The notes below the pieces were generated by a model. It ran no database searches, was not told the DNA's origin, and saw only the letters and a program-made list of their open reading frames with translations. Below, piece by piece: positions 3,510-31,709 of a DNA stretch of 43,561 nucleotides (the stretch's first letter is position 1; every line of letters starts with the position of its first letter). The stretch is taken from assembly GCF_900489465.1 (NCBI RefSeq), contig NZ_UEFQ01000018.1, forward strand, positions 1-43,561, read 5' to 3'. Source of the stretch: Aequorivita sp. CIP111184 (GTDB lineage Bacteria; Bacteroidota; Bacteroidia; Flavobacteriales; Flavobacteriaceae). The translations under genes were made by a program, and so were the position numbers.

Positions 3510-4511
3510 ATGAAATTGTTTAAAAAAGACCCAATTCAAATTATCACTTTCCGAAGCTACGGAACGTCAACCCATCTGTATGTTAAAGGGCGCGCACTAG
3601 AAGACGAAAATATAGACCTTTCAAAAAAAGGATTTTTCAATCTGTTGTGGAATACATACAAACGTTTTGATACAGATTTAATAAAAAACTCGCCGCTAAT
3701 TTTAACGCTTCCGGATGGTAGAAATATAAAAACCGAAACTGACGATCAAGGCTATTTTTTAATCGATGAGGCAATAGATAATATACTTCCACTAATTGAT
3801 GAAAACGGATGGTTGAAATATGAAATTTCCTTTGCTGAAAAGTTTTCACAAAGAACAATCCAAGAAAATAATAAATTTAGTGGCGAAGTAATGATTACTT
3901 CCGAAACTGCAAAATTTGGAGTAATTAGCGATGTGGATGATACCATTATGCACACGGGACTAACTTCCCGTTTCAAGTGGCAAGTTCTAAAAAATACTGT
4001 TTTTAAACGTGCCGAAAAAAGAATTCCTTTGGAAGGTGCCGCAGCTTTTTATATGAAGCTGAAGAATGGAAAATCGGGCAACGATTGCAACCCCATTTTT
4101 TATGTGAGTCACGGCCCGTGGAATCTATATTTATATTTAGAATTTTTTCTTAGGAAGAACAATTTCCCGAAAGGCCCAATGCTATTGCGTGATTTTGTGA
4201 ATCCATTCGCCAAAAAATACAAACCCGAAAAACCGCAAAAACAAAAGGAGATTATAAATATTTTGAAAACCTACCCTAAGCTGCCTTTTATTTTAATAGG
4301 CGACAGCGGCGAACACGATCCTGATATTTATATTGAAATTGCCGAAGCACATCCAGAAAGAATCCTTGCAATTTATATGCGGAGCGTAAATCACAAAATA
4401 AAAATGCTTCGTGTAAAAGGTCTCTTCAAAAATTATGAAACCGTCCCCGTGTTATTGGTAGAAGACAGCGAAGCTGCATTGGCGCACGCTCAAGAAATGG
4501 GTTTTATTTAA
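3510..4511 (+). CDS. App1-family (DUF2183) phosphatase
   Basis: Related to the catalytic domain of yeast App1 phosphatidate phosphatase, a HAD-superfamily fold. The nucleophile motif DVDDT is at residues 141-145. FYVSHGPWNLY and the later GDSGEHDPDIY supply the other conserved HAD and App1 motifs. Residues 1-130 form a beta-rich N-terminal region typical of bacterial members. There is no signal peptide or membrane segment, so it is probably cytoplasmic or peripheral. The length (333 aa) is ordinary. The physiological substrate in bacteria is unknown; a phosphatidate-like lipid is only an analogy. Its last 8 bases overlap the end of convergent ppk1. Confidence 0.88.
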   Translation: MKLFKKDPIQIITFRSYGTSTHLYVKGRALEDENIDLSKKGFFNLLWNTYKRFDTDLIKNSPLILTLPDGRNIKTETDDQGYFLIDEAIDNILPLIDENGWLKYEISFAEKFSQRTIQENNKFSGEVMITSETAKFGVISDVDDTIMHTGLTSRFKWQVLKNTVFKRAEKRIPLEGAAAFYMKLKNGKSGNDCNPIFYVSHGPWNLYLYLEFFLRKNNFPKGPMLLRDFVNPFAKKYKPEKPQKQKEIINILKTYPKLPFILIGDSGEHDPDIYIEIAEAHPERILAIYMRSVNHKIKMLRVKGLFKNYETVPVLLVEDSEAALAHAQEMGFI

Positions 4512-6543
4512 TAGCGTTCTTAAAATATTCGTAAGTGGCAAGTTGCGACTGAACCTCTTTATTCGAATTTTTCACATATTCATTCTTCTGTTCTGAATCA
4601 ATAATTCGGGCTTTTACGTTGTCTTCCAATTCTATGTTTACAATATCTCGAATGGTCTTTTTGTGGTCTTTATCTAAAATAGGTGCAACAACCTCTATTC
4701 GGTGTGTTAAATTGCGCGTCATCCAGTCGGCAGAGCCTATATAAATCTTTTCATCGCCATCGTTTCCAAATATATAAATCCGTCCGTGTTCAAGAAATCG
4801 ATCCACAATACTGGTGATGTAAATATTTTCGCTCTGTCCTTCAATTCCAGGAATCAAGGAACACATTCCTCTAATTAGCAACCGAACTTTAACTCCGGCG
4901 TTACTGGCTTTATAAAGTTCCTTAATCATTTTTTCATCCTGCAGGCTGTTCATCTTTAAAATAATCAATCCCTTTTTACCTTCATTTGCAAGTTCTATTT
5001 CTTTTTCCACTAAAGCTGTAAACCGCTCACGGGTGGTAAATGGAGAAACTAAAAGTTCTTTAGCTTTTGGAACAATCATATCTCGCTCCAAGACCATAAA
5101 TACTTTTTTGAGGTCTTTAGTAATTTTTTTATGGGCGGTCATCAACCCGAAATCTGTGTAAAGGGTAGCTGTATTTTCATTGAAGTTTCCCGTGGCAATG
5201 TAAGCGTATCGTTTTGGTTTGCCGTCAACTTCTCTTTCAATATAAAGTATTTTAGAGTGTACTTTAATATCCGGATAACTGTAAATAACTCGCGCCCCAT
5301 TTTTTCTGAAAATTGCACCCCATTTTAAATTGTTGTGTTCATCAAAACGCGCTTTAACTTCAATAAAAACAGTAACTTCTTTTCCGTTTTTTGCAGCCAG
5401 TGCGATGGCATCGTTTAAATCAGATTCATCTGCAGCACGATAAATAGTAATCTTTATGGTTTTTACCTTTGGATCATTTGCCGCTTCCTGCATCAATTTA
5501 ATAACAGGTTCAAAACTTTGATACGGGTAATGCAGTAGTTGATCTTTTTTGTTGACTACATCAAAAATTGAATCACAATTTGCCAAAACTGGATGGGGGA
5601 GTGGAGGTAGTTCTTTATTATCTAATTGCTTATCCGTAGGGTTCGGAAATCGCATAAAATCCTTAAAGTTGTGATACCGTCCGCCCAAAACCACATCGGT
5701 ATGATTTACGTCTAACGCCTTCTTGAGGATTTCACGAAAATCTTGTGGCATGGCTGGGTCTATTAAAATACGTGTGGCCTGCCCCGTGTCGCGTTTAGGA
5801 AGTGCAGCTTTTATTTTTTCCATCAAATTACCAGAAAATTCGTCTTCAATATAAAGATCTGCATCACGGGAAATTTTAACGGAATGAAAGATGGTATTTC
5901 TGTTTTCTGAAAATTCCGTTTGCAGACCGAATTTCAGAATATCATCAATAAAAGTGACGTGAAAATTTTTTTCATCTTCTGAAGGGAATAAGAAAAATCG
6001 TGGTTCGGTATCGGGTATTTCCACCATGAAGAATTCATCTTCTCCCGTTTGCGCCGCCAAATAAAGTCTTTCGTTTTTAACAAAAACTGAATGGTCTTCT
6101 GTGCAAGGATTGCAGCTTATTTCAGTTATTTGTTTTAGGCTTTCTTTATAATACTTGGTCGCGATTTTCTTTTGTTCTTCCGAAAAATCCTCGTGGCGTA
6201 TTAAGTGTATTCCTTCCAAAGCCAATTGTGGAATTATCTCTTTGTTGAAAATTCTCCCGAACTCGTTTTGCTGAATATCCACCTTTTCCTTAATCTCTTT
6301 TAAAACCTTGTTTGGCTTAGTGATTAGTTTTTTACGAAGTGGTTTTTCAATGTTTTTAATTTGCCGAATATCTGAAACGCGAACACGGAAGAACTCGTCA
6401 AGATTGGAGGAAAAAATTGCCAAAAACTTGATTCGCTCATAAAGAGGATTGCGTTCATCTGCCGCTTCCTGAAGCACACGATGGTTAAAACGTAGCCAGG
6501 AAAGATCGCGGTGATAAAATGTATTGTTATATAGTGATGCCAT
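4504..6543 (-). CDS. ppk1: Polyphosphate kinase 1
   Basis: Reversibly polymerises the gamma-phosphate of ATP into polyphosphate, usually as a membrane-associated enzyme. The chain is 679 aa, within the usual 680-720 range. The N-terminal YHRDLSWLRFNHRVLQEA and SSNLDEFFRVR stretches are diagnostic. The autophosphorylated histidine is in KVHSK at about residue 429, followed by YIATGNFNENTATLYTD; the second phospholipase-D-like motif (SADWMTRNLTHRIEV) is near residue 612. Its neighbours are two pyrophosphatases and an App1-type phosphatase, giving a local phosphate-metabolism group. The deoxynucleoside kinase lies 84 bases upstream on the same strand. Convergent overlap with the preceding gene is 8 bp. 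Confidence 0.97.
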   Translation of the reverse strand: MASLYNNTFYHRDLSWLRFNHRVLQEAADERNPLYERIKFLAIFSSNLDEFFRVRVSDIRQIKNIEKPLRKKLITKPNKVLKEIKEKVDIQQNEFGRIFNKEIIPQLALEGIHLIRHEDFSEEQKKIATKYYKESLKQITEISCNPCTEDHSVFVKNERLYLAAQTGEDEFFMVEIPDTEPRFFLFPSEDEKNFHVTFIDDILKFGLQTEFSENRNTIFHSVKISRDADLYIEDEFSGNLMEKIKAALPKRDTGQATRILIDPAMPQDFREILKKALDVNHTDVVLGGRYHNFKDFMRFPNPTDKQLDNKELPPLPHPVLANCDSIFDVVNKKDQLLHYPYQSFEPVIKLMQEAANDPKVKTIKITIYRAADESDLNDAIALAAKNGKEVTVFIEVKARFDEHNNLKWGAIFRKNGARVIYSYPDIKVHSKILYIEREVDGKPKRYAYIATGNFNENTATLYTDFGLMTAHKKITKDLKKVFMVLERDMIVPKAKELLVSPFTTRERFTALVEKEIELANEGKKGLIILKMNSLQDEKMIKELYKASNAGVKVRLLIRGMCSLIPGIEGQSENIYITSIVDRFLEHGRIYIFGNDGDEKIYIGSADWMTRNLTHRIEVVAPILDKDHKKTIRDIVNIELEDNVKARIIDSEQKNEYVKNSNKEVQSQLATYEYFKNAIK

Positions 6544-9191: not shown

Positions 9192-9203
9192 TAAAGTATA
9201 GGT

Positions 9204-9263
9204 CTCGACTGCGCTCGACCAGACAAGTTATTATTACTTCGAGCACAGTCGAGAAGTTTTTTT
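9204..9263 (+). terminator. Repeat hairpin with T-tract between GLPGLI and OMP genes
   Basis: CTCGACTGCGCTCGA (9204-9218) pairs with TCGAGCACAGTCGAG (9239-9253), 14 of 15 positions, around a 20-base loop. AAG and eight T residues follow, so it has the form of an intrinsic terminator or attenuator. The left arm is identical (in complement) to a 15-mer inside paaH at 22530-22544, so it is also a dispersed repeat. It could lower expression of the OMP gene relative to GLPGLI. Confidence 0.7.
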
Positions 9264-19178: not shown

Positions 19179-19198
19179 ATTCCTGCGAAGGCAGGAAT
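19179..19198. repeat. Palindromic repeat P1 (GAAG loop)
   Basis: ATTCCTGC-GAAG-GCAGGAAT, perfect 8-bp arms. Family members in this window are 20154-20173, 30053-30072, 30416-30435, 30943-30962 and 32666-32685. It lies between paaB and a decayed GIY-YIG gene. Confidence 0.92.
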
Positions 19199-19235
19199 CT
19201 CGTGATTTGAAGACCGAATTGAGTCATAACAGAAT

Positions 19236-19367
19236 ATGAAAAAATGGAATCGTGAATGGAAAATAAAATTAATTGAAGAAATGAATCCTGGTTGGTCTGA
19301 TTTAAACTTAAATTGGAATAATGAGAATTTGATTTATAGAACAAAAAGGTTTCCAACAACAAATTAA
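19236..19367 (+). pseudogene. Truncated GIY-YIG nuclease gene (C-terminal remnant)
   Basis: Forty-three codons read MKKWNREWKIKLIEEMNP, then GWSDLNLNWN. They match the C-terminal third of the intact GIY-YIG protein at 30089-30406 (MKKWKRDWKIKLIEEMNP, then SWSDLSTNWN), and the DNA is also highly similar. The catalytic N-terminal two thirds, including the GIY and YIG strands, are missing and an in-frame stop lies three codons upstream. A palindromic repeat of the same family that flanks the intact gene lies 37 bases upstream. This looks like an internally deleted copy of one element. It ends 3 bases before the paaC ATG. Confidence 0.85.
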
Positions 19368-20153: not shown

Positions 20154-20173
20154 ATTCCCGCGAAGGCGGGAAT
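20154..20173. repeat. Palindromic repeat P2 (GAAG loop)
   Basis: ATTCCCGC-GAAG-GCGGGAAT, perfect arms, a C/G variant of P1. Intergenic, paaC-paaD. Confidence 0.92.
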
Positions 20174-20696: not shown

Positions 20697-20714
20697 CGAA
20701 AATAAAAAACCGAA

Positions 20715-20778
20715 AAATGTAAAATTTCAAAGTCAAAAGTAAATTCTTTATTATTGAGACTTTTGCGGTTTTACATTT
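20715..20778. repeat. Intergenic inverted repeat, AATGTAAAA family, copy 1
   Basis: The left arm AAATGTAAAATTTCAAAGTC (20715-20734) pairs with 20758-20778 (complement AAATGTAAAACCGCAAAAGTC), loop about 23 bases. The conserved word ACCGAAAAATGTAAAA at its left recurs at copies 2 and 4, with a variant at copy 3. It occupies the paaD-paaG spacer. Confidence 0.75.
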
Positions 20779-20791
20779 TAAATTTATATAA

Positions 20792-21571
20792 ATGAAAAGC
20801 ATACTAACCCATATAGATAACAAAATAGCAACCTTAACACTAAACCGTCCAGAGGTTTTCAATAGTTTCAACCGCGAAATGGCATTGTTGCTTCAAAACG
20901 AATTGGATGCCTGCGAAAAAAACCCCGACGTCCGTGCAATTGTAATCACTGGAAGCGGAAAGGCTTTTTGTGCCGGACAAGATTTAAAGGAAGTTACTTC
21001 GCCTGAATTGAATCCAGGTTTCAAAAAAATTCTGGAAGAACATTATAACCCAATAATTTCCCGAATTCGAAATATTGAAAAACCTGTAATTGGAGCCATT
21101 AATGGTGTTGCTGCTGGAGCAGGTGCAAATATTGCATTGGCTTGTGATGTGGTTATTGCTTCAGAAAACGCTAGTTTTATTCAAGCTTTTAGCAAAATAG
21201 GATTAGTTCCAGATAGTGCTGGAACCTTCTTTTTACCGCGATTGATTGGTTTCCAAAAAGCTTCTGCTTTAATGATGCTGGGCGATAAAGTTTCCGCAGA
21301 AGAAGCTGAAAAACTTGGAATGGTTTATAAAGTGGTTTCTTCAGAAAATTTTATTGAAGAAGTAAACGCTATTGCAAATACAATGGCAAATATGCCAACA
21401 AAAGCATTGGGATTAACGAAGCGTTTGTTAAACAATTCAATGCAAAACTCTTTGGAAGAACAATTAAATTTAGAAAGCAAACTTCAAATAGAATCTGCAC
21501 AAAGTGAAGATTATGCGGAAGGTGTTGATGCTTTTGTAAATAAAAGAAAACCTGAATTTAAAGGAAGGTAA
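20792..21571 (+). CDS. paaG: 1,2-epoxyphenylacetyl-CoA isomerase
   Basis: Crotonase-fold enzyme that converts ring-1,2-epoxyphenylacetyl-CoA to the oxepin-CoA and also acts as a delta3,delta2-enoyl isomerase later in the route. The 259-aa sequence parallels E. coli PaaG: LTLNRPEVFNSFNREM, the oxyanion loop GSGKAFCAGQDL (residues about 50-61), NGVAAGAGANIALACD, and AFSKIGLVPDSAGTFFLPR containing the catalytic Asp of the PDxxGT motif. The C-terminal DYAEGVDAFVNKRKPEFKGR is typical. It is set in the main operon; inverted repeats of the AATGTAAAA family lie on both sides. Confidence 0.93.
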   Translation: MKSILTHIDNKIATLTLNRPEVFNSFNREMALLLQNELDACEKNPDVRAIVITGSGKAFCAGQDLKEVTSPELNPGFKKILEEHYNPIISRIRNIEKPVIGAINGVAAGAGANIALACDVVIASENASFIQAFSKIGLVPDSAGTFFLPRLIGFQKASALMMLGDKVSAEEAEKLGMVYKVVSSENFIEEVNAIANTMANMPTKALGLTKRLLNNSMQNSLEEQLNLESKLQIESAQSEDYAEGVDAFVNKRKPEFKGR

Positions 21572-21596
21572 AAAAATTGAAAAATGTAAAACCGAA

Positions 21597-21648
21597 AAAT
21601 GTAAAATTTAAAAGTGTTTTTTAAAAATGACTTTTAACTTTTACATTT
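21597..21648. repeat. Intergenic inverted repeat, AATGTAAAA family, copy 2
   Basis: AAATGTAAAATTTAAAAGT (21597-21615) pairs with ACTTTTAACTTTTACATTT (21630-21648), 18 of 19 positions, 14-base loop. Paa spacer paaG-paaH. Confidence 0.88.
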
Positions 21649-21662
21649 ATCATTTAAAATTT

Positions 21663-22835
21663 ATGATTAAAAACGTTGGAATTATAGGAAGCGGAACAAT
21701 GGGAGCGGGCATTGCACAAGTAGCTGCCACAGCCGGTTGCTCGGTAAAATTATACGATACAAAAACGGAAGCCTTGGATAAAGCCAAAGCCGATTTGGAA
21801 AAAATAATGGATCGTTTGGTGGAAAAAGGAAAAATAGATTCTACCGAAAAAGAACGTATTCAAAACAATATAAAATATGTCAGTTCACTTAAAGAATTGA
21901 AAAATTCGGATTTGACAATTGAAGCAATAGTTGAAAATTTAGATATAAAGAAAAATGTGTTTTCAACACTCGAAAAGTTTGTGAGTGAAGACTGTATAAT
22001 CGCGTCAAACACATCTTCTCTTTCTATTGCTTCTATAGCTTCTTCATTGCAAAAACCGAAACGCTGCGTTGGGATTCACTTTTTCAATCCAGCGCCATTG
22101 ATGAAATTGGTTGAGGTGATTCCTGCAATTCAAACTTCCGAAGAAACGTTGAATATTTCAGTAAAAACAATTAAAGATTGGGGAAAAACGGTTGCGGTTG
22201 CAAAGGATACTCCCGGATTTATAGTGAACCGTGTTGCGCGTCCTTTTTACGGCGAAGCGCTCCGGATTTATGAAGAAGGAATTGCTTCTTTCTCCGAAAT
22301 AGATTCCGCGATGAAAGAAATTGGCGGTTTCAGAATGGGACCATTTGAACTGATGGATTTTATTGGTAACGATGTGAATTACACCGTAACCGAAACTGTT
22401 TTTGAAGCATTTTACTTCGATCCGCGTTACAAACCTTCATTTACCCAAAAGCGTTTTTCGGAAGCAGGCTATTTGGGTAGAAAAAGTGGAAAGGGATATT
22501 ATGATTATTCAAGCGAAATGAATGTCTCCTCGAGCGCAGTCGAGAGGTCAATTGATAAAGAAAAATCTGAATCAATATTTAACCGTATTCTCGTAATGCT
22601 AATCAACGAAGCTGCAGATGCACTTTTTTGGAACATCGCTTCCGCAGAAGATATTGACAATGCAATGACCAAAGGCGTAAATTACCCCAAAGGATTATTG
22701 GCGTGGGCAGATGAAAAAGGAATTGATTGGTGCGTTGATAAAATGGACGAACTTTATGATGAATATCACGAAGACCGTTATCGTTGTTCGCCAATTTTAA
22801 GAAGAATGAAAAAAGAAAAAAGAACATTTTATTAA
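21663..22835 (+). CDS. paaH: 3-hydroxyacyl-CoA dehydrogenase
   Basis: NAD-dependent dehydrogenase oxidising 3-hydroxyadipyl-CoA to 3-oxoadipyl-CoA. I start at ATG 21663 (390 aa); an upstream in-frame ATG at 21627 would translate the inverted repeat. The Rossmann motif GSGTMGAGIAQVA is at residues 8-20, and TSSLSIASIA plus IHFFNPAPLMKLVEV give the active-site region. The first C-terminal domain begins at DTPGFIVNRVARPF. A second C-terminal domain (about 300-385, IFNRILVMLINEAADALF) follows. Between them, codons at 22530-22544 read a dispersed DNA repeat (TCGAGCGCAGTCGAG) as part of an SSSAVER linker, just after KGYYDYSSE. The reading frame is unbroken. Confidence 0.93.
   Translation: MIKNVGIIGSGTMGAGIAQVAATAGCSVKLYDTKTEALDKAKADLEKIMDRLVEKGKIDSTEKERIQNNIKYVSSLKELKNSDLTIEAIVENLDIKKNVFSTLEKFVSEDCIIASNTSSLSIASIASSLQKPKRCVGIHFFNPAPLMKLVEVIPAIQTSEETLNISVKTIKDWGKTVAVAKDTPGFIVNRVARPFYGEALRIYEEGIASFSEIDSAMKEIGGFRMGPFELMDFIGNDVNYTVTETVFEAFYFDPRYKPSFTQKRFSEAGYLGRKSGKGYYDYSSEMNVSSSAVERSIDKEKSESIFNRILVMLINEAADALFWNIASAEDIDNAMTKGVNYPKGLLAWADEKGIDWCVDKMDELYDEYHEDRYRCSPILRRMKKEKRTFY
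22530..22544 (-). repeat. 15-mer dispersed repeat inside paaH
   Basis: TCGAGCGCAGTCGAG is the exact reverse complement of 9204-9218, part of the hairpin between the GLPGLI and OMP genes. Here it is translated in frame in the linker between the two C-terminal domains of PaaH. Confidence 0.85.
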
Positions 22836-22907
22836 TGTAAAATGTAAAACCGAAAAACTAAAAATGTAAAAGTGATTGTCCGACTTTCGTCTTTTAAATT
22901 TTACATT
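22834..22907. repeat. Intergenic inverted repeat, AATGTAAAA family, copy 3
   Basis: The left arm AATGTAAAATGTAAAACCGA (22834-22855 in all) pairs imperfectly with 22885-22907 (complement AATGTAAAATTTAAAAGACG). The left arm starts within the paaH stop codon. paaH-paaI spacer. Confidence 0.75.
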
Positions 22908-22923
22908 TATTATTTTAAATTAA

Positions 22924-25624: not shown

Positions 25625-28120
25625 ATGCAAAAAACACAACATTATATATTAGGAAATTGGACGGATGGAAAAGGAGAGGGAAGCCCAATTCTCGATTCTA
25701 TAACCGGAGAACAGTTTACAAGCGTAACTACGGAAGGACTTGATATTCCTTCAATCTTACAATACGGAAGGGAAAAAGGAAATGTACTTCGCAAAATGAC
25801 TTTTCAGGAACGTGGACTATTGCTGAAAAAATTGGCAATGTACCTTACTAAAAAAAAGGAACAGTTTTATGAAATAAGTTATAGAACCGGAGCTACAAAA
25901 ATTGATAGTTGGATTGATATTGAAGGTGGTTTCGGTAATCTGTTTGCCAATGCATCCCTTCGGAAATTATTTCCAAACCAACCTTTTGACGTAGAAGGCG
26001 ACCCGATTGATCTTTCCCGAGGCGGACGTTTTATGGCGCACCACATTATGGTGCCTCGCGAGGGTGTTGCGGTACATATAAATGCTTTCAACTTTCCTGT
26101 TTGGGGAATGTTGGAGAAATGTGCCGTAAACTGGATGGCTGGAATGCCAGCCGTAGTTTTGCCAGCTCCGCAAACTGCTTATTTAACTGAAGCAGTTGTT
26201 CGAGAAATAATCGCTTCAAAAATTCTTCCCGAAGGTTCACTTCAACTTATTTCAGGAACTGCAAAAAACATTCTAGACACTGTAGAATCACAAGATGTGG
26301 TTACGTTTACTGGTTCTGCAAGCACGGGAAAAATACTAAAACAACATCCGCGATTGATTGAGGAATCGGTTCCTTTCACGATGGAAGCCGATAGTTTGAA
26401 TGCCGCTATTTTAGGCGAGGATGCCGTTCCGGGAACTCCCGAATTCGATCTTTTTATTAAGGAAGTCCGAAATGAAATGACCGTAAAATGTGGTCAAAAA
26501 TGTACCGCAATCCGACGAATAATTGTTCCCGAAAAATTGATGGAAGATGTTCAAATCGCTCTCGGGAAGCAGCTCGATAAAGTAACCATTGGTGATCCGC
26601 GTTTGAAAGAGGTTCGAATGGGGTCGTTGGTAAACGACGCACAACGAAATTCAGTAAAAGAGCAGATTTCAAAAATTACAAGTACAGCAAAAATTGTTTA
26701 CGGCGATTTTGATGATTTTAAAGTCACTGGCGCCGATTCAAAAAAGGGATCTTTTATGAAACCTATTTTGCTTCGCGAAGACAATCCGTTGCAAAACGAA
26801 GCAGCGCACATAACCGAAGCTTTCGGCCCTGTGAGTACATTAATGCCTTATAAAAATTTGGAAGAAGCCATTAAGCTTTCCAAAATGGGAAAAGGTTCGT
26901 TGGTAAGTTCCATTATAACCAACGATAATAGAATTGCAAAAGAATACACTGTTTCCGCAGCAACGCATCACGGAAGGATTTTAATTTTGAATAGGGAAAG
27001 CGCCAAAGAAAGTACAGGTCACGGTTCGCCGTTACCAAACCTTATTCACGGTGGACCTGGACGTGCGGGTGGAGGAGAAGAAATGGGCGGTATTCGTGGT
27101 ATAAAACATTATTTACAGCGTTGTGCTATTCAAGGTTCGCCAACAACTTTAACAGAAGTGACAGGTATTTATCAGCCTAATTCAGAATATAAAGAAGCCG
27201 AACAACATCCTTTCAAATACCATTGGGAAGATATCGAGCCGGGAATGTCGCTTAAAACACATAAGCGTACATTTACGGATACAGATATTATAAATTTCGC
27301 CAATCTTACGTGGGATCATTTTTATGCCCATACTGATATAACTTCACTTGACGGAAGTATTTTTGAAAAGCGGACTGCCCACGGTTATTTCATTATTTCC
27401 GCTGCTGCAGGGTTGTTTGTCTATCCAAACAAAGGTCCTGTTGCTGCAAACTACGGTTTGGAAGACTGCCGTTTCCTGCGTCCGTTGTATCATAATGATA
27501 CCGTTTATGTTCGGTTGACTTGCAAACAAAAAGTTGATAGAGACGTCGCTTCCGCAGAGCATCCTAGTGGAATCGTAAAATGGTTTGTTGAGGTTTTTGA
27601 TGCCGAAGATGAATTAGTTGCTTTGGCTACAATTCTCACGATGGTTCAGAAAAAGCAAGAGACTTTTGTTGAAATGACTGATAAAAAAATTCAGGAATTA
27701 TTGAACAAATTGACCGAAGATACAAAACCAAAATGGGGTATTATGACGCCACAACATATGTTGGAACATTTGGAATACACCTATAAAATTGCTTCGGGAA
27801 AGATTCAGGATTTTGAAGTGGCTACTCCCGAAAAAATTTTGGAAAAAGTTCACGCGAGTCTTTATAATTATAAAAAATTTCCAATGAACTCACAATTTCC
27901 ATTGTTGGAAAAAGATATATTGGATACTTTAAGGCATCCTGATTTAGCAATGGCGAAAGAGAAATTTCTTGAAGAAAGGGAAGCCTATAAAACCTATTTC
28001 AAAGAAAACCCAGACGCTAAATTGAACAATTTAGTTTTTGGCGAATTAAACCGTTACGAATGGTATTTGATGGAGCGGAAGCATTTGAATCATCATTTTG
28101 AGCAATTCGGATTACTATAA
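25625..28120 (+). CDS. paaZ: Bifunctional oxepin-CoA hydrolase / aldehyde dehydrogenase with extra C-terminal domain
   Basis: PaaZ opens the oxepin-CoA ring (MaoC-type hydratase) and oxidises the resulting aldehyde (ALDH). Residues 1-515 are the NADP-dependent dehydrogenase: catalytic Cys293 in GQKCTAIRR and general-base Glu254 in FTMEADSLNA. Residues about 530-680 are the R-hydratase, with Asp and His in WDHFYAH near 565. E. coli PaaZ stops at 681 residues; this one continues to 831. The additional 150 residues (TDKKIQELLNKLTEDTKPKW, MTPQHMLEHLEYTY, FGELNRYEWYLMERKHLNHHFEQFG) look like a DUF1569/DinB-type helical metal-binding domain. The fusion is in frame and no frameshift is apparent. It is translated 2 bases after paaJ. 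Confidence 0.93.
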   Translation: MQKTQHYILGNWTDGKGEGSPILDSITGEQFTSVTTEGLDIPSILQYGREKGNVLRKMTFQERGLLLKKLAMYLTKKKEQFYEISYRTGATKIDSWIDIEGGFGNLFANASLRKLFPNQPFDVEGDPIDLSRGGRFMAHHIMVPREGVAVHINAFNFPVWGMLEKCAVNWMAGMPAVVLPAPQTAYLTEAVVREIIASKILPEGSLQLISGTAKNILDTVESQDVVTFTGSASTGKILKQHPRLIEESVPFTMEADSLNAAILGEDAVPGTPEFDLFIKEVRNEMTVKCGQKCTAIRRIIVPEKLMEDVQIALGKQLDKVTIGDPRLKEVRMGSLVNDAQRNSVKEQISKITSTAKIVYGDFDDFKVTGADSKKGSFMKPILLREDNPLQNEAAHITEAFGPVSTLMPYKNLEEAIKLSKMGKGSLVSSIITNDNRIAKEYTVSAATHHGRILILNRESAKESTGHGSPLPNLIHGGPGRAGGGEEMGGIRGIKHYLQRCAIQGSPTTLTEVTGIYQPNSEYKEAEQHPFKYHWEDIEPGMSLKTHKRTFTDTDIINFANLTWDHFYAHTDITSLDGSIFEKRTAHGYFIISAAAGLFVYPNKGPVAANYGLEDCRFLRPLYHNDTVYVRLTCKQKVDRDVASAEHPSGIVKWFVEVFDAEDELVALATILTMVQKKQETFVEMTDKKIQELLNKLTEDTKPKWGIMTPQHMLEHLEYTYKIASGKIQDFEVATPEKILEKVHASLYNYKKFPMNSQFPLLEKDILDTLRHPDLAMAKEKFLEEREAYKTYFKENPDAKLNNLVFGELNRYEWYLMERKHLNHHFEQFGLL

Positions 28121-28139
28121 TTTAAAACCGAAAAATGTA

Positions 28140-28190
28140 AAATTAAAAATGTAAAAGTTGGTTTGAATGATACTTTTACATTTTGCATTT
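28140..28190. repeat. Intergenic inverted repeat, AATGTAAAA family, copy 4
   Basis: AAATTAAAAATGTAAAAGT (28140-28158) pairs with ACTTTTACATTTTGCATTT (28172-28190), 17 of 19 positions, 13-base loop. paaZ-crotonase spacer. Confidence 0.88.
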
Positions 28191-28208
28191 AAAATTTATT
28201 ATTTAAGA

Positions 28209-29056: not shown

Positions 29057-29416
29057 TTGGCATTAAAGCATAATTTTAGAAAATTGGCAATTTGGCAGGA
29101 AGCAAGAAAGCTTGTGAGGGAAACCTATACTATTACTTGCAAATTCCCTAAATCTGAAATTTATGGTCTTTCAAATCAGTTGCAGCGTTGTTCTATTTCT
29201 ATTGCATCAAATATTGCAGAGGGTTCGGCCCGAAATTCCGATAAGCATTTCATTCAGTATTTAGAAACTGCTTTGGGTTCTTCATTTGAATGGGAGACAC
29301 AATTGATTTGTGCGTTTGATTTGCAATATATAGACCATATTACATTTGAAAAGAATTTACAAACTATACAAAAATTACAGGCAATGATATCAAATTTTAA
29401 AAATACATTAAACTAA
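29057..29416 (+). CDS. Four-helix-bundle protein (23S rRNA intervening-sequence protein family), copy 2
   Basis: Second S23/IVP-type protein in the window, 119 aa and clearly divergent from copy 1 (both keep IWQ/VW...A, FP..E.YGL..Q..R...S...NIAEG.-RN). Key segment: SEIYGLSNQLQRCSISIASNIAEGSAR. Start problem: the plausible ATG at 29045 is followed at once by an in-frame TAG, so the only start left is TTG 29057, which gives a normal-length protein. It is bracketed by inverted repeats that differ in sequence from those of copy 1. It lies between the second crotonase and paaY. Whether it is still translated is open. Confidence 0.85.
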   Translation: MALKHNFRKLAIWQEARKLVRETYTITCKFPKSEIYGLSNQLQRCSISIASNIAEGSARNSDKHFIQYLETALGSSFEWETQLICAFDLQYIDHITFEKNLQTIQKLQAMISNFKNTLN

Positions 29417-29471: not shown

Positions 29472-30077
29472 ATGATTTACAGTTTCAAAGGCCATATTCC
29501 AGTAGTTCACGAAAGCAGTTTCGTCCACCCATTGGCGGCAGTTACTGGAAATGTTATCATTGGAAAAAACTGCTATATCGGCCCAGGCGCTGCTATTCGT
29601 GGCGATTGGGGCGAAATTATTTTGGAAGATGGCGTCAACGTTCAGGAAAATTGTACGGTACATATGTTTCCAGGGAAAAGTATTGTGCTAAAAGAAAGTG
29701 CTCATGTGGGCCACGGCGCAATAATTCACGGCGCTAATTTGGGTCGTAATTGTTTGATTGGCATGAACAGTGTTATAATGGACGATGCCGAGATTGGTGA
29801 TGAATGCATCGTTGGCGCAATGAGTTTTGTAAAAGCTGAAGAGAAATTTCCAAAGCGGAAATTAATTTTAGGGAATCCTGCAAAGGCAATTAAAGACATT
29901 TCAGATGAAATGATTGCTTGGAAAACTGCGGGAACAAGATTATACCAACAATTGCCCAAAGACTGTCACGAAAGTTTAAAAGAGGTGGAGCCGCTTCGGG
30001 AAATTCCCAAGAATAGGCCAAAACAGGAGGATTTTTTTAAAACTTTGAACCAATTTCTGCGAAGGCAGGAATCTTAA
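29472..30077 (+). CDS. paaY: PaaY, left-handed beta-helix thioesterase
   Basis: Gamma-carbonic-anhydrase-fold trimer that hydrolyses ring-1,2-hydroxylated CoA dead-ends together with PaaI. The sequence shows the hexapeptide repeat pattern: ESSFVHPLAAVTGNVIIGKNCYIGPGAAIRGDWG, then VNVQENCTVHMF, then AHVGHGAIIHGANLGRNCLIGMNSVI (metal-site histidines at about 74, 79 and 82 by analogy). The C-terminal helix KTAGTRLYQQLPKDC is PaaY-like. The last residues, FLRRQES, are encoded by a palindromic DNA repeat (30053-30072) that runs into the stop codon, so the native C-terminus has been replaced or extended. GIY-YIG follows 11 bases later. Length 201 aa. Confidence 0.93.
   Translation: MIYSFKGHIPVVHESSFVHPLAAVTGNVIIGKNCYIGPGAAIRGDWGEIILEDGVNVQENCTVHMFPGKSIVLKESAHVGHGAIIHGANLGRNCLIGMNSVIMDDAEIGDECIVGAMSFVKAEEKFPKRKLILGNPAKAIKDISDEMIAWKTAGTRLYQQLPKDCHESLKEVEPLREIPKNRPKQEDFFKTLNQFLRRQES
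30053..30072. repeat. Palindromic repeat P3 (GAAG loop), left boundary of GIY-YIG unit
   Basis: ATTTCTGC-GAAG-GCAGGAAT, one T-G pair in the arms. It is translated as part of the paaY C-terminus. Confidence 0.9.
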
Positions 30078-30088
30078 ACCAAGTATAC

Positions 30089-30406
30089 GTGAACCTTTGG
30101 TATGTTTATATTATGGCAAACAAGGCTAACGGCATTTTGTATGTAGGCTGTACCAATAATATTGAAGAAAGAGTAAAAGAACATAAGTTAAAAATTTATC
30201 CAAACAGTTTCACGGCAAAATACAATTGCGATAAATTAATATATTTTGAAGAATATAATGAAGGCGTTATAGCTTCCAAAAGAGAATTGCAAATGAAGAA
30301 ATGGAAACGTGATTGGAAGATTAAATTAATTGAAGAAATGAATCCGAGTTGGTCTGATTTGAGTACGAATTGGAACTTAAATTTTAATAAACTTAGAAAT
30401 GAGTGA
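30089..30406 (+). CDS. GIY-YIG domain nuclease, repeat-flanked
   Basis: Single-domain GIY-YIG protein of 105 aa of the small UPF0213-like type. The GIY strand is WYVYIMANK (residues 3-11) and the YIG strand ILYVGCTN (about 14-21). The catalytic Arg is in IEERVKEHK (about 25-33) and the metal-binding Glu is in the SKRELQMKKWKRDWK region (about 65-80). GTG at 30089 is the fitting start. It lies exactly between two palindromes of one family, whose loops are in opposite orientations (GAAG on the left, CTGC/CTTC-like on the right). Its stop overlaps the start of the E2 gene (ATGAGTGA). A truncated copy of the same gene sits beside another member of the repeat family at 19236-19367. Mobile-element behaviour is inferred. 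Confidence 0.9.
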   Translation: MNLWYVYIMANKANGILYVGCTNNIEERVKEHKLKIYPNSFTAKYNCDKLIYFEEYNEGVIASKRELQMKKWKRDWKIKLIEEMNPSWSDLSTNWNLNFNKLRNE

Positions 30407-31709
30407 CGAAAAGAGATTCCTGCCTGCGCAGGAATTCAAAATGCCCAAAATGGGCGAAAGTATTACAGAAGGAACGATCATCAATTGGATGATAAACGAA
30501 GGTGATTCTTTTGAAGAAGGCGATATTCTGCTGGAAGTTGCCACTGATAAAGTGGACAATGAAGTTCCTGCGCCTGCTTCCGGAAAAATGCTTGAACATA
30601 AATTTAAAGCAAAGGATATTGTTCCCGTTGGGGAAGTGATAGCGATTTTAGAGCTTTCCGATGAAAAGGGAGTTTCAACATCATCAAAAAAAACTACTGA
30701 AAAAAATATAGTTAAAGATTCTTCCGAAAAAACAAAAGGACAAAAACAAGTCTCAAAACCAGCTTCATTTAAAGTAAACGAAAACGTTTTCATTTCACCT
30801 TTGGTTGATGCCGTTGCCCGTAAAAATCATATAAGTTATGAGGAGCTCGCTCGAATTTCCGGAACAGGAAAAGACGGCCGTCTGCGAAAAAGTGATGTTT
30901 CAAATTATTTGGAAAACGGTCGTCCGTTTCAGTTTGTACAAAATTCCCGCGAAGACGGGAATCCCACATTTCAAATCCCCGATTTAAAATTCGATAAAGG
31001 AAAAGGCAAAATCGTAGAAATGGACCGTATGCGCCAAATGATTGCGGATCATATGGTTTTTAGTGCTAGCACTGCGCCGCACGTTACCGCATACGTAGAA
31101 GCAGATTTGACCGAAATGGTTAATTGGCGAAACAAAAACAAAGTTGCTTTTCAGAAAAAACACAACGAAAAACTTACGTTTACTCCGCTATTTATAGAAT
31201 GTGTTGCAAAAGCAATCACAGATTTTCCAATGATAAATTCCACGCTTGATGGAACAAATATTATTGTAAAAGAGGAAATAAATATTGGGATGGCTACGGC
31301 ACTTCCTTCTGGAAATTTAATTGTTCCTGTCGTGAAAAATGCGGATAAGAAAGATTTAAAGGAACTGGCAAAAACCACAAACGAATTGGTTGGAAAATCC
31401 CGTGATAACAAATTGAAAGGGGATGATACCAAAGGAAGCACTTTTACAATTAGTAACGTTGGAACTTTCGGAAGCTTAATGGGAACACCTATCATCAACC
31501 AACCCGAAGCCGCGATTCTCGCAACGGGAATCATAAAAAAACGCGCTGAGGTTATGGAGCGGGAAGAGGGCGATACTATCGAAATTAGACAGATGATGTA
31601 CCTCTCGCTTTCCTTCGACCATAGAATTGTGGATGGTTATTTGGCAGGTTCTTTTTTACGAAGAATTGCGAATTATATGGAAAAGTTTGATGTAGAAAGG
31701 ACGTTTTGA
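30399..31709 (+). CDS. Dihydrolipoamide acyltransferase (E2) of a 2-oxoacid dehydrogenase
   Basis: Transacylase core of a branched-chain-type 2-oxoacid dehydrogenase. Order: lipoyl domain (about residues 13-88; lipoyl-lysine 51 in VATDKVDNE), a flexible linker, the E1/E3-binding domain (about 128-168, ISPLVDAVARKNHIS), a second linker, and the catalytic domain with LSFDHRIVDGYLAG near residue 408. Two palindromic DNA repeats are translated in frame: one gives RFLPAQEF at the N-terminus before KMPKMGESITEG, the other gives NSREDGN (about 182-188) in the linker before the catalytic domain. The first may also have displaced the original start codon. E1 follows after 62 bases, so the two form an operon. 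E3 is not in this window. Confidence 0.93.
   Translation: MSDEKRFLPAQEFKMPKMGESITEGTIINWMINEGDSFEEGDILLEVATDKVDNEVPAPASGKMLEHKFKAKDIVPVGEVIAILELSDEKGVSTSSKKTTEKNIVKDSSEKTKGQKQVSKPASFKVNENVFISPLVDAVARKNHISYEELARISGTGKDGRLRKSDVSNYLENGRPFQFVQNSREDGNPTFQIPDLKFDKGKGKIVEMDRMRQMIADHMVFSASTAPHVTAYVEADLTEMVNWRNKNKVAFQKKHNEKLTFTPLFIECVAKAITDFPMINSTLDGTNIIVKEEINIGMATALPSGNLIVPVVKNADKKDLKELAKTTNELVGKSRDNKLKGDDTKGSTFTISNVGTFGSLMGTPIINQPEAAILATGIIKKRAEVMEREEGDTIEIRQMMYLSLSFDHRIVDGYLAGSFLRRIANYMEKFDVERTF
30416..30435. repeat. Palindromic repeat P4 (CTGC loop), right boundary of GIY-YIG unit
   Basis: ATTCCTGC-CTGC-GCAGGAAT, perfect arms. It is opposite in loop orientation to P3 and is translated as the N-terminus of E2. 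Confidence 0.92.
30943..30962. repeat. Palindromic repeat P5 inside the E2 linker
   Basis: ATTCCCGC-GAAG-ACGGGAAT, one mismatch next to the loop. It is read in frame as NSREDGN. Confidence 0.85.

Follow-up and report, generated by a model that had tools for sequence, protein, structure and literature searches.

Two classes of repetitive extragenic palindrome (REP) are distinguished in the class descriptions of PMC3733652: a GTAG class with an associated enzyme, the REP-associated transposase (RAYT), and a CGTC class for which no such enzyme was recorded in 2013. The CGTC class apparently lacks a dedicated transposase, with Table 1 of that paper giving no link to transposase genes, and it includes the dRS3 repeat of Neisseria (a CGTC-1 element) and RPE-4/6 of Rickettsia. 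Its members are described there as having a stem of 8 to 9 bp that starts with AT, a loop of 4 to 5 nucleotides, a CGTC (or TGTC/CCTC) tag and a CCA-like tail, and as occurring predominantly as HH dimers. In this study, we examined a stretch of 43,561 nucleotides from Aequorivita sp. CIP111184 (contig NZ_UEFQ01000018.1; this whole stretch is referred to as the window), in which a small GIY-YIG nuclease gene lies between two inverted palindromes at the junction of paaY and a 2-oxoacid dehydrogenase E2 gene.

GIY-YIG proteins named Ssn, site-specific single-strand nucleases, reportedly act on the dRS3-like NTS of Neisseria (work said to have appeared in Nature Communications in 2025), and other homologues in that work are said to act on repeats matching them. 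As this work reportedly ties a Neisseria nuclease to such repeats, a link between GIY-YIG proteins and repeats is probably not wholly new. A literature search of CC0, CC BY and CC BY-SA papers found no title or abstract opening that joined GIY-YIG to REPs, and the main text of PMC12306157 has no word starting with "nuclease" or "RAYT". The reading that we favor, with a probability of roughly 0.6, is that the paaY-E2 locus carries a mobile REP unit, composed of a small stand-alone GIY-YIG nuclease and its cognate CGTC-type hairpin and behaving as a selfish system resembling that of REPs and RAYTs. The nuclease of this system is probably of the Ssn type.

A GIY-YIG gene bracketed by inverted palindromes

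The unit and the genes that it adjoins are as follows.

29472..30077, + strand: paaY, hexapeptide-repeat protein; its 3' end enters the left palindrome
30053..30072, + strand: left REP palindrome, ATTTCTGC-GAAG-GCAGGAAT, one mismatch, loop GAAG (from the sequence)
30089..30406, + strand: GIY-YIG nuclease gene, 105 aa, GTG start (from the open reading frame [ORF] list and Pfam)
30399..30406, + strand: ATGAGTGA, the unit-borne E2 start codon, overlapping the GIY-YIG stop (from the sequence and relatives)
30399..31709, + strand: 2-oxoacid dehydrogenase E2, the target gene, with the unit at its 5' end
30416..30435, + strand: right REP palindrome, ATTCCTGC-CTGC-GCAGGAAT, perfect, loop CTGC, inverse orientation (from the sequence)

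A preliminary description of this DNA had placed the gene between two palindromes of one family in opposite orientation, and the sequence bears out these positions. Translation likewise agreed with its statement that both palindromes are coding: the left one encodes the last codons of paaY (...QFLRRQES, followed by the stop) and the right one the N terminus of E2 (MSDEKRFLPAQEF...). One correction was required, in that E2 begins within the unit, with a start codon (30399) overlapping the last bases of the GIY-YIG ORF.

Pfam detected GIY-YIG (PF01541) alone in the 105-aa protein (E value of 1.2e-15). Residues Y7, Y18, G20, R28 and E66, which we take to be catalytic from the GIY-YIG superfamily, were invariant among 14 aligned proteins. 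Comparison with the gene of another Aequorivita genome (G017) gave nonsynonymous (dN) and synonymous (dS) values of 0.037 and 0.46, respectively, which speaks for a working gene. The predicted fold (pLDDT of 91) was best matched by the UPF0213 structure 1zg2 (E value of 8.7e-4) and then, weakly, by Slx1 and the UvrC nuclease domain, while the nearest solved sequences were 1zg2 and 1ywl. PHROGs matches were to homing endonucleases, and an NCBIfam search of the protein returned nothing above the cut-off. The reading of a phage gene was dropped, a search of 50,697 phage records having given no match at 1e-5.

Palindrome pairs are enriched around GIY-YIG homologues

A pair was scored when hairpins of the same type occurred within 200 bp on both sides of a gene, in either orientation, with a single threshold and with no demand for inversion. 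The family sample consisted of 89 loci (29 plus 60 fetched) taken from among the best matches of a homologue search rather than drawn at random; a few of them overlap. Same-type pairs flanked 57 of 105 GIY-YIG matches in this sample (52 of 98 distinct places) versus 0 of 588 control windows. Within the genus, 12 of 65 GIY-YIG ORFs had a pair, compared to 2 of 2055 windows. A CCTGC-type core was present on both sides at 60 of 80 named loci (left, 70; right, 69) versus 1 of 311 shifted windows, and the left hairpin was of a different kind at 6 of the 80. As a separate observation, six units upstream of paaB/paaC (L240, L254, L255, L259, L288 and L291) had a left hairpin of CCTCTTTGAAAAAAGAGG or one base off and a right hairpin of ACCTGC, ACCTGT or TCCTGT, so that their two ends are unlike.

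A plasmid collection, which includes some chromosomes, yielded 33 matching records, from which 16 loci were fetched. Pairs were found at 11 of these 16, all in Proteobacteria (two Sinorhizobium, two Shinella, Neorhizobium, Rhizobium CIAT894, Azospirillum, Novosphingobium, Sphingobium, Aeromonas and N. gonorrhoeae), and were missed in Planktothrix, Photobacterium, two Rhizobium and Spirosoma; the controls gave 1 of 960 for shuffles and 32 of 240 for swapped flanks. The Neisseria homologue has 41.9% identity to the window protein and carries matching palindromes on its flanks. Enrichment of the palindrome near homologues, which the preliminary description had looked for, was found in the family, the genus, the named loci and the plasmid collection; neither of the outcomes that it had set against itself, a lack of enrichment or the same gene everywhere without palindromes, was seen.

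Bracketing was mostly by palindromes in opposite orientation: 49 of 58 pooled units were inverted and 9 direct, these figures leaving out pairs at a tRNA cassette and terminator-like pairs (51 inverted and 13 direct of 64 when they are included). Palindrome types differed among the GIY-YIG proteins (CCTGC, CCCGC, CCGCA, GCGCA and others). Under the same exclusions, protein distance correlated with palindrome distance (Mantel r of 0.51, 53 proteins, 0/5000 permutations; r of 0.59 with 59 proteins when all are included), a correlation to which shared descent contributes.

The palindrome was more abundant in genomes where the gene was detected. A GIY-YIG match at 1e-12 was obtained in 143 genomes, which had a mean of 6.2 ATTCCTGC palindromes (at least 5 in 45 of them); the 156 genomes without such a match had a mean of 0.78 (at least 5 in 7). 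The reversed ATTCCTGC pattern occurred 0 times in all 299 genomes. The Y1 transposase (PF01797) was undetected in 11 of 24 genomes searched, including two with 49 and 61 exact palindromes (G235 and G313, respectively). A RAYT as the mover was dropped, since several of the 11 genomes have tens of palindromes; RAYTs are therefore unnecessary for abundance, though possible in some genomes.

Filled sites, empty sites and gene-less doublets

Among 26 Aequorivita orthologues of the paaY-E2 junction, the GIY-YIG unit was present in 3 (the source genome, G017 and G025, with a decayed gene in G025). A lone CCCGC-type palindrome was found in 1 and a short junction without any insert in 6; another 4 held other sequence or genes, and E2 was not found in 1. 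Relatives lacking the unit, which the preliminary description had proposed to seek, thus exist. Its suggestion that the unit entered a paaY-E2 junction holds in that these relatives have no unit there; the correction concerns the point of entry, which in relatives lies in the 5' coding portion of E2. Locus comparisons and the breakpoints at E2 sites supported the further claim that gene and palindromes behave as a single inserted unit. The remaining junctions held other palindromic inserts: 7 of the 26 (L039, L047, L048, L050, L051, L058 and L063) carried CGAGCGCAGTCGAGG / CTTCGACTGCGCTCAG, or sequences closely similar to these, as an inverted doublet, and 4 (L044, L045, L053 and L056) carried an insert of the GCGCCTCTGCGGT type.

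Doublets without a gene were also present. One in the source genome (contig C35, approximately 406,950 to 407,077) lies upstream of a gene start; at 27 genus loci, both palindromes were present in 5, one in 2 and none in 18, with 2 not comparable, and the 18 loci without the doublet comprised 16 short junctions and 2 of other lengths. All 12 neighbors within 150 bp pointed inward in G235, as did 7 of 9 in G313 (among the 62 of 73 sites listed). Most doublets in these two genomes had starts 40 to 53 bp apart and TGTCA...TGACA ends.

The close homologues adjoin nine different downstream-gene clusters and one undetermined. On a tree of 103 columns with few firm branches, downstream-gene context changed 17 times, compared to a minimum of 9 and a shuffled mean of 33.5, and therefore sites have been inherited yet have also changed; the tree label "paaC" pools paaA-paaB sites (L240, L252 and L255) with one paaB-paaC site.

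A copied stretch and an open frame at the start of E2

For 11 of 16 units at E2, a copy of the stretch adjoining the right palindrome precedes the unit, ending 0 to 12 bp before the left palindrome. Nine of these 11 copies extend past ATGCC into E2, with ends at +15 to +24, +27 and +37. The copied stretch ranges from 27 to at least 82 bp and has differing breakpoints, a pattern other than the fixed-length duplication of a classical insertion sequence. One target (L138) is an E2 gene with just 40% identity to that of the window. Judging from these sequences, the E2 start looks like a stretch that has received more than one insertion. For the unit in the window, the copy seems to have been lost from the left side together with the paaY stop.

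The frame from the ATG before the right palindrome through to E2 was open at 10 of 10 named E2-site loci, and at 8 of the 10 that ATG occupied the position that it has in the window, inside the last part of the GIY-YIG ORF. Depending on the frame, translation of the right palindrome gives RFLPSQ, EIPAFAG or RFPLSW. Besides E2, many unit sites are gene junctions, and no copied target was evident at those inspected. A score of at least 11 was reached by direct repeats beside 9 of 64 paired units and by 4 of 320 mismatched pairings. Several of these hits (L148, L157 and L193) represent other repeats, and for that reason general target duplication is not claimed.

Comparison with described systems

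As far as the class is characterized in PMC3733652, the palindromes fit the CGTC REPs, and the doublets fit best. Points of likeness are an 8-bp stem beginning with AT, a 4-nucleotide loop, inverted dimers and in-frame copies in genes and, less clearly, a CCA-like tail. A TGTC or CGTC tag was present on the left in 15 of 18 G235 and G313 doublets, while neither unit in the window has the tag; it was seen at many Proteobacteria loci (uncounted), and in the dimers the tags face outward. Azospirillum lipoferum, which is named in that paper, has such palindromes around a GIY-YIG gene of its own. The difference is the association with a GIY-YIG gene, whereas PMC3733652, in its account of the class, marks no association with a transposase.

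The arrangement also resembles REP-RAYT and REPIN systems (REPtrons) in having a nuclease gene flanked by inverted palindromes and dispersed, inward-facing doublets without a gene. It differs in its enzyme, which is a GIY-YIG protein and not an HUH Y1 transposase (PF01797), and in its palindrome, which is of the CGTC/TGTC type rather than the GTAG type as given in PMC3733652. The unit probably works like a REP-RAYT system, yet it is no member, having no HUH transposase. The likeness to RAYTs with a different nuclease fold, suggested at the outset, was thus supported by the PF01541 match, the inverted flanking palindromes and the inward doublets.

As is reported of the Ssn proteins, the window protein is small, consists of a single GIY-YIG domain and has a cognate repeat in the genome; it also recovers a Neisseria homologue. 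The structure of the flavobacterial unit, the stretch copied at E2, the portable start codon and the presence/absence sites are what is described here. UPF0213, Slx1 and the N-terminal GIY-YIG domain of UvrC are the nearest sequences and folds; in contrast to the unit, no palindrome pair was seen at 53 of the 65 GIY-YIG ORFs of the genus, among which distant paralogues are numerous.

Proposed mechanism and alternatives

Sequence comparison shows the bracketing, mostly in opposite orientation, a palindrome type that varies with the protein, sites with and without the insert, the stretch copied at E2 and a frame open through the palindrome; from these, we infer binding, cutting, specificity for single strands and movement caused by the nuclease. 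The GIY-YIG nuclease would recognize the hairpin of its cognate CGTC-type REP. Its gene is bracketed by two copies of this hairpin that face inward, and more copies stand elsewhere, singly or as gene-less doublets. The nuclease would probably nick the hairpin in single-stranded form, on the lagging strand or in incoming DNA, and nicking would let palindromes, doublets and the nuclease unit enter new places. The unit appears suited to the 5' ends of operon genes: it supplies a start codon that overlaps its ORF at the end, and its palindrome is free of stops in the frame used; a gene that is hit would stay readable because the unit brings both. Part of the E2 target is copied to the far side of the unit. 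A broader proposal, to which we give somewhat less than even odds, is that GIY-YIG proteins are the missing enzyme of the CGTC superfamily in Bacteroidota and Proteobacteria, and that they define a class of mobile unit that inserts at the 5' coding end of genes in operons, copies part of the target and keeps the gene alive by means of a portable start codon and a translatable palindrome, with the doublets as nonautonomous passengers.

Several observations weigh against a mobile unit of this kind. The pair test failed for 48 of the 105 family matches, and just 6 of the 12 genus pairs are REP-like, 4 being one tandem tRNA-GIY cassette (L112) and 2 terminator-like (L097 and L109). No ATTCCTGC palindrome was found in 54 of the 143 genomes with a GIY-YIG match, and of the 7 genomes with at least 5 palindromes and no match at 1e-12, 4 have distant homologues only and 3 have none at 1e-3. 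Y1-transposase matches were obtained in 13 of 24 genomes, the source genome having 2, both weak. Contexts cluster on the tree, which makes much of the distribution, as read from these sequences, a matter of inheritance at fixed sites. The copied stretch is clear at E2 only; copies at L295 and L303 stop at -2, before ATGCC, and contain a palindrome; no copy was present in the source genome or at L128, L132, L251 and L300; and L132 and L251 share sequence, leaving at most 15 independent E2 units.

One alternative is that the system serves Ssn-like defense or control of transformation. The nuclease would cut single-stranded DNA, whether incoming or exposed, where it carries the palindromes, and would in this way modulate recombination; Ssn reportedly acts on the NTS/dRS3 repeat of Neisseria. 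Bracketing would then hold the gene in a block insulated from recombination, with spread arising as a by-product of natural transformation and homologous recombination. The matching palindromes flanking the Neisseria homologue, together with the listing of dRS3 as a CGTC-1 element in the class descriptions (PMC3733652), favor this account. Taken alone, it leaves unexplained the copies at the E2 start with their different breakpoints, the unit-borne start codon and the inward doublet that is missing at most of the orthologous sites compared, and we consider it possible but rather unlikely.

The E2 start appears to have been used more than once, at several breakpoints and also in the 40%-identical E2 of L138; together with the PHROGs matches, this would also suit a free-standing homing endonuclease entering conserved coding sites such as the E2 start (MPKMGE codons), the palindromes being mere end sequences. 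We regard this as improbable, given palindromes genome-wide without the gene and no evident copied target at the other sites inspected. Ordinary intercistronic RNA hairpins, acting as terminators or stabilizers with the gene as a passenger in busy operon junctions, would account for units in operons, where hairpins are common between genes, and for the 2 terminator-like pairs among the 12 of the genus. Such pairs were rare elsewhere (2/2055, 0/588 and 1/311), counts on which a passenger gene in an ordinary junction was dropped; in addition, palindrome type tracks the protein and the palindromes are translated at E2. A known RNA element was rejected, the Rfam scan of the window having given nothing above the gathering score, and the explanation by ordinary hairpins appears highly improbable. 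The mobile REP unit stays our preferred reading.

Other palindromes and repeats

Matches to TTCCTGCNNNNGCAGGAA with up to 3 mismatches numbered 14 in the window, compared to 1.78 expected, and 0 of 100 shuffles attained 14. Further copies lie in or beside the paa genes and in E2:

19179..19198, + strand: left palindrome of a decayed unit, paaB-paaC junction
19230..19322, + strand: decayed GIY-YIG remnant, residues 67 to 97, 74% identity
19390..19409, + strand: ATTCCCGCCTTCTCGGGAAT, the right-hand palindrome of this decayed unit, within 5' coding sequence of paaC
20154..20173, + strand: single palindrome ATTCCCGCGAAGGCGGGAAT, paaC-paaD junction
30943..30962, + strand: single palindrome in the E2 linker, in frame (NSREDGN)

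The decayed paaB-paaC unit, absent from the preliminary description, has the same architecture as the paaY-E2 unit. The E2-linker palindrome (30943 to 30962) was missing in all 11 relatives that yielded a linker sequence (none was obtained at 14 of 26 loci).

Further repeats were observed in the window. An inverted pair, TCTCGACTGCGCTCGA / TCGAGCACAGTCGAGA (9203 to 9254), may represent a second REP family in this genome; several A/T-rich inverted repeats based on AATGTAAAA occur at 20714 to 22916 and 28117 to 28199, and CTACTCACTACTCA forms a 14-bp tandem repeat at 8 to 113. Between ech and paaY (29057 to 29416) lies a four-helix-bundle gene (PF05635) of the 23S rRNA intervening-sequence type. 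Of the 26 genus loci, only some carry a close copy of it and others carry a divergent one; no flanking repeats of this gene were found at the settings applied.

Other GIY-YIG genes of the genus directly adjoin tRNA genes, at L112 and at 7 of 38 further loci scanned (tRNA-Val at L100, L103, L106 and L109; tRNA-Arg at L108, L113 and L127). At L112 (G005:C1:1924164-1933496), a 357-bp cassette of tRNA and GIY-YIG is repeated 4.1 times at 3885 to 5349. A normal tRNA-Val(tac) comes first, the copies at 4240 to 4319 and 4955 to 5034 scan as tRNA-Gln(ttg), and in the cassette copy read the hairpin CCCGAACTTGCTTCGGG occupies the expected position of the anticodon arm.

Implications

REP sequences are common bacterial repeats, and a consistent pairing of palindrome and GIY-YIG gene in two phyla names a candidate enzyme for the CGTC class. 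The nuclease is a good candidate for spreading a large class of REPs that was reported without an enzyme of its own, and the pairing supplies testable cognate pairs of enzyme and site, together with natural empty and filled sites.

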